A DNA stretch of 47,106 bases from Actinomycetota bacterium (GTDB taxonomy: Bacteria > Actinomycetota > Acidimicrobiia > Acidimicrobiales > CADCSY01), in assembly GCA_019348495.1 (NCBI GenBank), contig JAHWJI010000006.1, positions 1 through 47,106 of the forward strand, given 5' to 3'. Positions within the stretch are counted from its first letter, which is position 1. Every line of letters starts with the position of its first letter. The notes under the pieces were generated by a model. That model searched no databases, was not told the DNA's origin, and saw only the letters and a list, made by a program, of their open reading frames with translations. The position numbers and the translations under genes were made by a program. Below are positions 1 to 17,055 of the stretch, in pieces.

Positions 1-1677
1 GGCGGTGAAGAACATCTCCACGGCGTGCTGGAAGCCCTCGACGTCGAAGCGGTTCTCGTCCTCGTCGAGGAAGGCGAGCAGGTTGATGGAGGCCAGGTTG
101 CACGCCGAGTTGTCTAGATGCATGTACTCGCTGTTGTGCACGACGACTGCGCACCCGCTTCTGGAGTCGGCGGCGGGAGCGGCAACCGCGAAGTTGTGCG
201 TGCCCTCCACTTCGAGGTCGTAGACAGCAACGGGCTCGTCGAGCGACAAGTGCTCGACCGACAAGACCCAGTCCTGGCCCTCGACCGCCCGAAGTTCGAC
301 TGCGGCCTCCAGCGTTGCGGCTTCTCGGTACTCCCCCGTCGACGTCAGGAATCGGTGCTCCGGAGTGCAACGGGCCACGATGCCCTTCTGGGTGCGAACT
401 TCCACCAGATCGGTCGTGGAACCAACGATCCACGCCTTGATGATCTCTCGGCGCTGCACCACACCTGCTTCGAGATCGAGACTTGACGCTTCGGGCAGCG
501 ATCGTCCTTCGTCGCTCATGCGGGCCAGCCGTTCGATGGCGATGAGGCCATCACTCGTGTCGACCAGCGTCTCGCCCACGAAGCAGCAGGGGTTCGATCC
601 GTTGATGCGGCCGGTGTTGGCCGCGGTGTGCCAGCGGTTGATGGTGGTGTCGAACTGCATGCCCGGGTCGGCGCACTGCCAGGTGGCCTCGGAGATCTGG
701 CGCATCAGGTCGCGGGCCTTGACCGTGCGCACCACCTCACCCGTGGTGACGGCCCGGAGGTGCCAGTCGGCGTCGTCGACCACGGCCTGCATGAACTCGT
801 CGGTGACCCGCACCGAGTTGTTGGCGTTCTGGTACTGCGTGGAGTGGCTGTCCTTGCCGTCGAGGTCCATGTCGAAGCCGGCCTCTCGCAGCACCCGGGC
901 CTTGCGCTCCTCCACCGCCTTGCACCACACGAAGTCCTCGATGTCGGGGTGGTCGGCGTTGAGGATGACCATCTTGGCCGCCCGGCGGGTGGCCCCCCCC
1001 GACTTGATCGTCCCCGCCGAGGCGTCGGCGCCGCGCATGAAGCTGACCGGGCCCGAGGCGGTACCGCCCCCGTTGAGCAGCTCGGCCGAGGAGCGGATGC
1101 GGGACAGGTTGACGCCCGCACCGGAGCCACCCTTGAAGATGGTGCCCTCCTCGACGTACCAGTTGAGGATGGAGTCCATGGTGTCGTCGACCGACAGGAT
1201 GAAGCAGGCCGAGGCTTGCCTCTTCCGTCCCTTGGCGCCGATGTTGAACCACACCGGGGAGTTGAACGCCCCCCGCTGGGTGACGATGAGGTACTTGAGC
1301 TCGTCGGCGAAGGCCGCGGCCTCGGCCTCGTCGGCGAAGTAGCCGCCGGCCCGCCCCCAGCCGGCGATGGTGTCGACCACCCGGTCGGCTACCTGGCGCA
1401 GCGACGTCTCCCGCTCCGGGGTGCCCAGGGCCCCCCGGAAGTACTTCTGGGCCAGGATGTTGGTGGCGTGCAGGGACCAGGAGACCGGTACCTCGACGTC
1501 GGGCTGCTCGAAGGCCACCGAGCCGTCCCGGTAGTTGGTGATGCGACTCGTGCGCCGCTCCCAGGCCACCTGGTCGTAGGGGTGGACCCCGTCTCGCGTG
1601 AAGCGGCGGCGCAACCCGATGCGCCCCCCCACCACGGGCTCGTTCCCGGTCACCTGGCTCGATGGCGCCATCGCCAT
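1..1677 (-). CDS. nrdJ: Adenosylcobalamin-dependent (class II) ribonucleotide reductase, 5' part, intein-containing
   Basis: Reduces ribonucleotides to deoxyribonucleotides with a B12-derived radical. The visible 559 codons cover the N-terminal part; the C-terminal part lies beyond the window edge. Reading frame was taken from the sequence because the ORF track shows only shadow frames here. Recognisable stretches are FNSPVWFNIG, GSGAGVNLSRIRSS, SGPVSFMRGAD, KSGGATRRAAKM, and the catalytic NPC...SEYMHLDNSACNLASIN, which is split by an intein at residues 365-515. By homology with E. coli NrdA (N437, C439, E441) the Cys of NPC should be the thiyl-radical residue. Start is the ATG at 1677, preceded by GAGGAG nine bases upstream. 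No nrdR lies beside it; a RibD-like gene occupies the divergent position. An 8-C run (near 1000) and otherwise normal high-G+C codon use are seen. Family assignment is firm. Confidence 0.93.
   Translation of the reverse strand, partial: MAMAPSSQVTGNEPVVGGRIGLRRRFTRDGVHPYDQVAWERRTSRITNYRDGSVAFEQPDVEVPVSWSLHATNILAQKYFRGALGTPERETSLRQVADRVVDTIAGWGRAGGYFADEAEAAAFADELKYLIVTQRGAFNSPVWFNIGAKGRKRQASACFILSVDDTMDSILNWYVEEGTIFKGGSGAGVNLSRIRSSAELLNGGGTASGPVSFMRGADASAGTIKSGGATRRAAKMVILNADHPDIEDFVWCKAVEERKARVLREAGFDMDLDGKDSHSTQYQNANNSVRVTDEFMQAVVDDADWHLRAVTTGEVVRTVKARDLMRQISEATWQCADPGMQFDTTINRWHTAANTGRINGSNPCCFVGETLVDTSDGLIAIERLARMSDEGRSLPEASSLDLEAGVVQRREIIKAWIVGSTTDLVEVRTQKGIVARCTPEHRFLTSTGEYREAATLEAAVELRAVEGQDWVLSVEHLSLDEPVAVYDLEVEGTHNFAVAAPAADSRSGCAVVVHNSEYMHLDNSACNLASINLLAFLDEDENRFDVEGFQHAVEMFFTA
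133..585 (-). mobile_element. NrdJ mini-intein (151 residues, no endonuclease domain)
   Basis: An in-frame protein-splicing element interrupts nrdJ between Cys364 and Ser516. It begins with Cys (CFVGETLVDTSDG, block A), has a block B with the TPEH motif (ARCTPEHRFLT), a block F (VYDLEVEGTHNFAV) and ends VVVHN followed by Ser+1. All residues needed for standard class 1 splicing are therefore present. At 151 residues there is no room for a LAGLIDADG domain, so it is a mini-intein. The extein junction NPC/SE is the same site that I recall for the split NrdJ-1 intein. Codon use inside is less G+C-rich than the host (for example GAA, GGA, CGA, AGT). Confidence 0.92.
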
Positions 1678-3418: not shown

Positions 3419-4051
3419 ATGGCCGAGGCGCCGATCAGCGAGCGACAGCGAGAGATCCTGCAGTTCATCGTCGACGAGCAGCGAGACCGGGGCTTTCCCC
3501 CGTCGGTCCGGGAGATCGGCCTGGCCGTGGGTCTGACCTCCCCCTCGACGGTGCACACCCACCTCAACACGCTCGAGCGGCGGGGCTACATCCGTCGTGA
3601 CCCCACCAAGCCCCGGGCCATGGAGGTCTGCTACGACCCGGGCTCGGGCGCCACCGCCGAACGCCGTCCCGTCAACCACGTCCCTCTGGTCGGCGACGTC
3701 GCCGCCGGCGCCAACGTGTTGGCCCAGGAGAACGTCGAGGAGCTGGTGCCCGTCCCGGCCGACCTCACCGGCGAGGGCACCTTGTTCATGCTGCGCGTGC
3801 GGGGAGATTCCATGATCGACGCGGGCATCCTCGACGGCGACTTCGTCGTGGTCCGCCAGCAACCCGACGCCAACGACGGCGACGTGGTGGTGGCCGGCAT
3901 CCCGGGAGAGGAGGCCACGGTCAAGACCCTGCGGCGGGAGGGCGACGAAGCGATCCTGGTACCGGCCAACACCAGCTTGTCGCCCGTTCGCTACCGATCC
4001 GAAGAGATCGCGATCTTTGGTAAAGTGGTCACGGTTCTGCGCCGATTGTAG
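3419..4051 (+). CDS. lexA: LexA, SOS-response repressor and self-cleaving protease
   Basis: 210 residues, normal for LexA. The N-terminal winged-helix DNA-binding domain (about 1-70) contains ISERQREILQFI and PPSVREIGLAVGL with SPSTVHTHL as recognition helix. The cleavage region has the Ala-Gly bond in VAAGANVL. The C-terminal S24 peptidase domain shows the Ser of RGDSM and the Lys of TVKTL as catalytic dyad. It represses DNA-damage genes and is cleaved when RecA filaments form; recA in this window carries a perfect operator. The ATG at 3419 follows AAGGTGGAG. The ORF-track start at 1598 reads through unrelated sequence. The subtilase gene follows 35 bp downstream and may be cotranscribed. 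Confidence 0.97.
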   Translation: MAEAPISERQREILQFIVDEQRDRGFPPSVREIGLAVGLTSPSTVHTHLNTLERRGYIRRDPTKPRAMEVCYDPGSGATAERRPVNHVPLVGDVAAGANVLAQENVEELVPVPADLTGEGTLFMLRVRGDSMIDAGILDGDFVVVRQQPDANDGDVVVAGIPGEEATVKTLRREGDEAILVPANTSLSPVRYRSEEIAIFGKVVTVLRRL

Positions 4052-4086
4052 AAAAGCGGGACAGCGGCACCGCGCAGGAGGCCCAC

Positions 4087-5406
4087 ATGCAGCGAATCGT
4101 CGGGGTGCTCGCGCTCGCCCTCGCGCTCCTGCTCGCCCTGCCGGGGGTGGCCACCGCCAGCAACGATCCGTTGTTCCCCCAGCAGTGGGCCTTGGATGCC
4201 ATCGGCGCCGAGACGGCATGGAGCCGGGGACGGGGCGGGGGCACGATCATCGCCGTGGTCGACACCGGCATCGACCTCGACCACGAGGACCTGGCGTCGA
4301 AGATCGTGGCCGGCTACGACTTCATCGGGGGGGACTCCTCCCCCGAGGACGACGCCCGCGACTGCGAGCCCCGCCAGCCCGGCTGCAACTACGGTCGAGG
4401 GCACGGGACGCACGTGGCCGGCATCGCCGCCGCCGCCACCGGGAACCGCACCGGCGTCGCCGGGGTGGCGCCCGATGCCCGCATCATGCCCATCCGGGTG
4501 CTCGACTCCGCGGGCAGCGGCCACGTCACCCAGGTCGCCCAGGGCATCCGCTTCGCCGCCGACAACGGCGCCGACGTGATCAACCTCTCCTTCGGTGAGA
4601 TCGCCACCGACGTCGACCTCTCGCCCGCCTTCACCGAGGCCATCCGTTACGCCTGGGCCAGGGGCTCCATCCCGGTGGTGGCCGCCGGCAACGACTTCGT
4701 GGGCACGAGCAGCTTCACCGACGAACCCGCCCTGGTGGTCACCGCCACTGGCCGGACCGGCGGCCGGGCCGGCTACGCCAGCAGCGTGGGCAACGCCCGG
4801 TGGGGCATGGCCGCTCCTGGGGGCGACGGGCGGGTCGGCTCCGACGAGGTGTGCACCCCCGAGACGGGCATCGTCTCCACCCACGCCGACAACAACTACG
4901 CCTGCCTGGTGGGCACCTCGATGGCCGTGCCCCACGTGGCCGGCGCCGCCGCCGTGCTCCGGGGCATGGGACTGTCGCCCCAGCAGGTCGTCGACCAACT
5001 CCTCACCACCACCGACGACGTGGGCACCATAGGTCGCGACACCACCTTCGGCGCCGGCCGGCTGAACCTGGCCCGGGCCGCGCACAGCGCCCTGCCACCG
5101 ACCACCGTGGCGCCGGCCACCGTCGCCGCCGTGCCCACCACGACGCCGCCCACCAGCGAGGCACCGGCGACGACCACCACCACCGAGGCGCCCACCACCA
5201 CGGTGCCGTCGCCCACCGTGTCCCTGCCGATGGGCAACCCCACACCGATCGAGCCGCCCGGGCGGGCCATCGCCCTCCTGCCCGACGACGTCCGGGGCGA
5301 CGACACCACCCGCTACGTGGCGGCCGTCCCCGCCGGGTTGCTGATCGCCGGCGTGGGCGCGGCGACGTGGCGCATGCGCCCCCGCCCATCCTCCCCCCTG
5401 CGCTGA
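4087..5406 (+). CDS. Secreted, C-terminally anchored S8 (subtilisin-like) serine protease
   Basis: 439 residues. A signal peptide (residues 1-24, VLALALALLLALPGVATA) is followed by the subtilase domain with the catalytic triad Asp in AVVDTGID, His in GRGHGTHVAG and Ser in VGTSMAVPHVAG; the oxyanion Asn is in AAGND. After about residue 335 comes a Thr/Pro-rich spacer, then a membrane helix (VAAVPAGLLIAGVGAATW) and a short basic tail. This order resembles mycosins, but there are no ESX genes around, so no such role is claimed. The ATG is preceded by AGGAGG with good spacing. It converges with dapE, with only 22 bp between the two stops. Confidence 0.9.
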   Translation: MQRIVGVLALALALLLALPGVATASNDPLFPQQWALDAIGAETAWSRGRGGGTIIAVVDTGIDLDHEDLASKIVAGYDFIGGDSSPEDDARDCEPRQPGCNYGRGHGTHVAGIAAAATGNRTGVAGVAPDARIMPIRVLDSAGSGHVTQVAQGIRFAADNGADVINLSFGEIATDVDLSPAFTEAIRYAWARGSIPVVAAGNDFVGTSSFTDEPALVVTATGRTGGRAGYASSVGNARWGMAAPGGDGRVGSDEVCTPETGIVSTHADNNYACLVGTSMAVPHVAGAAAVLRGMGLSPQQVVDQLLTTTDDVGTIGRDTTFGAGRLNLARAAHSALPPTTVAPATVAAVPTTTPPTSEAPATTTTTEAPTTTVPSPTVSLPMGNPTPIEPPGRAIALLPDDVRGDDTTRYVAAVPAGLLIAGVGAATWRMRPRPSSPLR

Positions 5407-14752: not shown

Positions 14753-16930
<2,178 letters not shown>

Positions 16931-17055
16931 TGTCGCTCCTGTCTCTGGGATTGCCTGCTGGCGAGTTGCGGGACCCCGGAGGTCCGATGGGCACACCCTA
17001 GGAAGAGGGTGAGACAACTACCACGCGTGGAATTCCTCCCGTGTGGTTCTCACAC

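Follow-up and report, generated by a model that had tools for sequence, protein, structure and literature searches.

A contiguous class 1 mini-intein beside the predicted radical cysteine of a class II ribonucleotide reductase, one codon away from the LAGLIDADG intein of its congeners

The nrdJ gene at the start of the window (the whole 47,106-nt stretch analysed here) contains an insert that divides the motif holding the predicted radical cysteine, which raises the question of what this insert is and by what route it reached that position. Positions 1-1926 of the minus strand form one open frame encoding NrdJ, interrupted by the insert at 133-585. We hold with high confidence that it is a class 1 mini-intein, occupying the NrdJ-1 site in a class II ribonucleotide reductase, whose origin would lie in a family that includes HNH-bearing phage inteins and which probably replaced a LAGLIDADG intein. 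The single genome concerned (G000) is a 2.2 Mb draft in 161 contigs; the window lies at the end of contig C128, so that the C-extein breaks off after 132 nt. A search of the G000 assembly for the missing 3' half of nrdJ matched only the class I NrdA paralogue.

An earlier note, made from the letters alone, had read the segment as a contiguous mini-intein of 151 residues with Cys1 and Ser+1, with blocks A, B, F and G intact and no endonuclease, and had proposed searching it with intein profiles and looking for empty sites in close relatives. That reading was borne out. The coordinates are exact, the translation runs for 151 residues without a stop (CFVGETLV...VVVHN), and the NrdJ frame is unbroken across both junctions (...GRINGSNPC / intein / SEYMHLDNSACN...), with the insertion point at NPC/SEY and a 3' junction reading ...VVVHN/SEYMH.... 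The junction DNA reads AACCCCTGC/TGCTTC...CACAAC/AGCGAG. Three profiles matched the segment above their curated cut-offs, namely PF14890 Intein_splicing (E 5.9e-10), TIGR01445 intein_Nterm (E 5.7e-9) and TIGR01443 intein_Cterm (E 5e-4), while a Pfam/profile scan of the 151 residues returned HINT families only and no endonuclease domain. The class 1 residue set is complete (Cys1, Thr74-x-x-His77, His150-Asn151 and Ser+1). Invariant across 13 aligned family members are Cys1, C73, Thr74, His77, D123, Asn131, F132 and Asn151, and the penultimate His is present in 12 of the 13 (Table 1). The AlphaFold2 model of the intein, with the 13-member alignment as input, has a mean pLDDT of 94.9 and a predicted HINT fold; Foldseek matched it to solved inteins and intein-like domains with TM-scores of 0.74-0.81 (2lwy 0.81; Mtu RecA 3ifj 0.75; Npu DnaE 4kl5 0.76; NrdJ-1 8ubs 0.79), 1mi8 being also among the matches. 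A split intein is ruled out, as one continuous frame spans both junctions.

Table 1. Features of the interrupted nrdJ gene in the window
Feature	Positions	Strand	Evidence
N-extein, NrdJ residues 1-364, ending ...GRINGSNPC (start set by choice at the ATG at 1677; frame open further 5')	586..1677	-	PF08471, PF02867, PRK06556 E 1.1e-178
TGC Cys-1, predicted thiyl-radical cysteine	586..588	-	Alignment with PDB 1xje; junction DNA AACCCCTGC/TGCTTC
Contiguous class 1 mini-intein, 151 aa, without endonuclease	133..585	-	Profiles, AlphaFold2 model, Foldseek
Block A, residues 1-13, Cys1 nucleophile	547..585	-	Cys1 invariant, 13 members
Block B, residues 68-81, GIVARCTPEHRFLT, Thr74-x-x-His77	343..384	-	C73, T74, H77 invariant, 13 members
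Block F, residues 120-134, AVYDLEVEGTHNFAV	184..228	-	D123, N131, F132 invariant, 13 members; TIGR01443
Block G, residues 146-151, AVVVHN, His150-Asn151	133..150	-	13-member alignment
Ser+1 (AGC), second nucleophile	130..132	-	Junction DNA
C-extein, first 44 residues SEYMHLDNSACN..., ends with contig	1..132	-	PF02867 E 2.3e-7; 95% nt identity to G006 over 129 nt

Profile searches (PRK06556, PF08471 and PF02867) identify the host protein as the class II B12-dependent ribonucleotide reductase NrdJ. The residue preceding the intein corresponds in the alignment to Cys322, the established radical cysteine of T. maritima NrdJ (1xje; motif N320-P321-C322-G-E324), and the intein thus does adjoin the predicted radical cysteine, as had been claimed. 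That the insertion might belong to the normal NrdJ fold, the outcome named beforehand as refuting the intein, is ruled out by the relatives that do not have it and by solved class II enzymes, which align without a break over the junction. Placing the intein boundary before the first of the paired cysteines (NP/CC...) was also rejected, because splicing would then remove the radical cysteine from the mature enzyme. Since the intein divides the N-P-C-S-E motif between Cys and Ser, the unspliced precursor is expected to be inactive. Splicing would begin with an N-S acyl shift at Cys1, continue with attack by Ser+1 and cyclisation of Asn151, and end with NPC joined to SEY, restoring the N-P-C-S-E motif with its radical cysteine. 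The earlier expectation of an enzyme idle until splicing can be kept for NrdJ, but contig C147 of G000 also has genes for class I NrdA (an open frame of 917 aa) and NrdB, and the cell may thus not be wholly dependent on NrdJ. No intein was seen in the NrdA frame, and none of the G000 intein matches lies on C147.

At least ten bacterial genomes besides this one have a contiguous mini-intein at the same nrdJ codon. Their hosts are Acidimicrobiia, other Actinomycetota including a Euzebyaceae genome, one Dormibacterota and one genome labelled Chlamydiae, and the inteins, of 149-184 aa, are 40-54% identical to that of the window. These mini-inteins (L016, L042, L043, L044, L054, L173, L174, L176 and L191, with L046 and L047 also grouped among them) share the NPC/S codon and are endonuclease-free, but they reside in other hosts and show a smaller codon-composition gap. 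Within the host class the site is present in 257 of 296 sampled genomes; about 18 of these 257 gave the split match expected of an occupied site, and a mini-intein was found in four, including the window. One genome (G670) has two nrdJ genes, each with a different NPC/S mini-intein (L174 and L191). In the Acidimicrobiales MAG YX2bin35 (L045) the NPC site of nrdJ is empty and an apparently intact mini-intein of the family lies just upstream of the gene in a short frame (4001-4444; junctions TPS/CLVG...VVVHN/SGG), which may be a copy that moved or a product of misassembly.

Seven nrdJ genes on viral contigs (L192-L195, L197, L268 and L272) carry a related intein at the same codon that is enlarged between blocks B and F, and in all four tested this region contains a PF13392 HNH_3 domain. 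The viral HNH inteins measure approximately 293-309 aa where the end could be read, against 151 aa in the window, and in the five compared the splicing domain is 39-42% identical to the window intein. One viral mini-intein (L246), although on a long branch, is nested in a clade of HNH forms (support 99/93 and 97/87) and has probably lost its nuclease. The deep branches are weak in both intein trees, including those that bear on which form, HNH or mini, came first in bacteria. The NPC codon of other viral nrdJ genes holds a 311-aa HNH intein with Cys+1 (L113-L124), a 134-aa mini-intein (L259) and, on three contigs (L255, L256 and L257), split inteins at GTNPC/CEIALRP, with an N-half of 107 residues and the C-half (HN/CEIALRP) some 0.8-0.9 kb further on the same strand. 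A search of named cultured phages turned up no intein closely related to that of the window; in Sphingomonas phage PAU and Synechococcus phage S-CBWM1 the class I reductase has an intein directly before the equivalent cysteine (SNL/C...HN/CTE). The likely origin of the window intein, as judged from these sequences, is nuclease loss followed by horizontal spread: a phage-borne HNH intein would home to NPC/SEY, and some of its copies would lose the nuclease, persist as mini-inteins and spread with nrdJ recombination.

The three congeners examined (G004, G005 and G006) all have a different intein, inserted one codon upstream at NP/C (NP/CFPG...VRN/CSEYM). It comprises 398 residues where complete (G004 and G006), with just its C-terminal part on the contig of G005, and in G006 it contains a LAGLIDADG_3 domain (E 3e-22) and has the junction DNA AACCCG/TGCTTC...CGGAAC/TGCTCGGAG. 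Inteins of this kind, present in the nrdJ of the congeners and of many Actinomycetota, are likewise class 1 but differ from the window intein in their size (about 360-400 aa), Pro-1, Cys+1 and absence of the penultimate His, the domain itself having been tested in G006. Five other members of the host family have an empty site with an uninterrupted NPCSEYM. The extein DNA tree reads ((window, G006) 99/96, G004), and the window is collinear with G006 over nrdJ and the adjoining genes, at 83.9% over 2.3 kb upstream and 95% over 129 nt downstream. As the window species is sister to G006, which has the NP/C intein, its lineage probably lost that intein and gained the NPC/S one. The GC3 of the window intein is 0.77 vs 0.97 in the exteins, a wider gap than at any other occupied locus compared and one consistent with recent arrival. 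No clear co-conversion tract was found around the site: of 14 flanking codons, 5 are different in G006 (P 0.04), and other parts of nrdJ reach this value too.

The reverse order of events, with a mini-intein ancestral in the genus that the congeners lost before gaining the LAGLIDADG intein, would suit a family so diverse and scattered across the phylum, but we consider it improbable, given that it requires repeated losses and gains (G006, the sister, G004 and G005 are all NP/C) and that the strongest codon-composition gap is that of the window intein. Far less probable still is a derivation of the mini-intein from the congeners' own NP/C intein by endonuclease deletion and a one-codon slip. 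The two share a genus, adjacent codons and a class 1 HINT domain, but the window intein is only 29-32% identical to the congeners' intein, as opposed to 40-54% to the NPC/S mini-inteins, and the end residues are unlike (RN/C vs HN/S). The present trees also disfavour such a derivation, with the NP/C LAGLIDADG inteins in a separate clade and the NPC/S inteins outside (86/97 in one tree, 95/95 in the other), and had the slip begun with loss of the upstream TGC, the mature enzyme would have been left with no radical cysteine. We give equally little credit to a splicing-dead remnant within a pseudogene made dispensable by the class I reductase: nrdA and nrdB without a visible intein and an nrdJ that ends at the contig end would accommodate it, but every splicing residue is intact, no stop breaks the frame, and the exteins are strongly conserved (83-88% identical to those of other family genomes). 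An assembly or binning artefact, conceivable in a draft genome where the contig ends 132 nt past an intein of deviating codon composition, is the least credible explanation in view of junctions exactly in frame, both flanks collinear with G006 and other genomes with the identical arrangement at the same codon.

Replacement of the LAGLIDADG intein by the mini-intein thus remains our preferred history of the window lineage. The LAGLIDADG intein should target a stretch overlapping the mini-intein site, and with overlapping targets either intein would destroy the target of the other. It is conceivable, although we advance it tentatively and would sooner doubt it than accept it, that two unrelated intein lineages compete over the adjacent codons flanking the radical cysteine, and that the mini-intein, having replaced the LAGLIDADG intein, now shields nrdJ from re-invasion by interrupting the overlapping recognition sequence.

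The choice of codon is not strictly tied to the lineage of the intein. One intein (L175, in G594) is 51% identical to that of the window, yet it is placed at NP/C with Cys+1, so the mini-intein family uses both codons. The NP/C mini-inteins L175 and L019 (G373) have Pro-1, despite its reported disruption of splicing in NrdJ-1, as do the LAGLIDADG inteins at NP/C. Other nrdJ inteins (L236 in G004, L239 in G003, L238 in G005 and L240 in G011) lie at further conserved motifs, and the additional sites in the host family are before the cysteine of QASA/CFILS, at APTG/TIG and at AISK/TVN. The window has a second intein, of 360 residues, in recA (15218-16297, minus strand, within the frame 14756-17017; GVMFG/CMTW...), and two more are found in G000 on contig C70 at approximately 25.7-27.7 kb (L040 and L041), apparently in the replicative helicase DnaB.

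We found no description of contiguous NPC/S inteins, nor of the one-codon intein pair, in the open-access literature; subscription papers, for the most part, and InBase lay outside the search, so an earlier description elsewhere is possible. The window intein is a natural contiguous intein with Ser+1, inserted where a split intein in wide use also lies, and homologues at the same codon are available in a mini and an endonuclease-bearing form, with split inteins there too. Within the genus, nearly identical exteins carry different inteins one codon apart, a comparison that suits the direct study of competition, replacement and blocking between adjacent inteins.

The earlier note had also equated the insertion site with that of NrdJ-1; the site identity stands, but no close kinship in sequence goes with it. 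The native NrdJ-1 junction is NPC/SEI with an obligate Ser+1, and Pro-1 is poorly tolerated and disrupts splicing (PMC13123727). NrdJ-1, a split intein from a marine metagenome (PDB 8ubs), is like the window intein in its insertion codon NPC/SE, Cys1, Ser+1 and HINT fold (TM-score 0.79), whereas the window intein is contiguous, only about 20% identical by Foldseek, and followed by SEY instead of SEI. The match between the two reaches 32.8 bits, below the 43.7 bits for a CDC21 intein, and together with the low identity this rules out a member of the NrdJ-1 subfamily or a fused NrdJ-1. The contiguous NPC/SEY mini-intein is of a known kind, and its distinctive point is the one-codon alternation around the radical cysteine. 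Neighbouring inteins have been shown to interfere with each other in the MCM of haloarchaea (PMC10643990), but there they stand at separate sites and can both be present at once, whereas the two nrdJ inteins compared here lie one codon apart.
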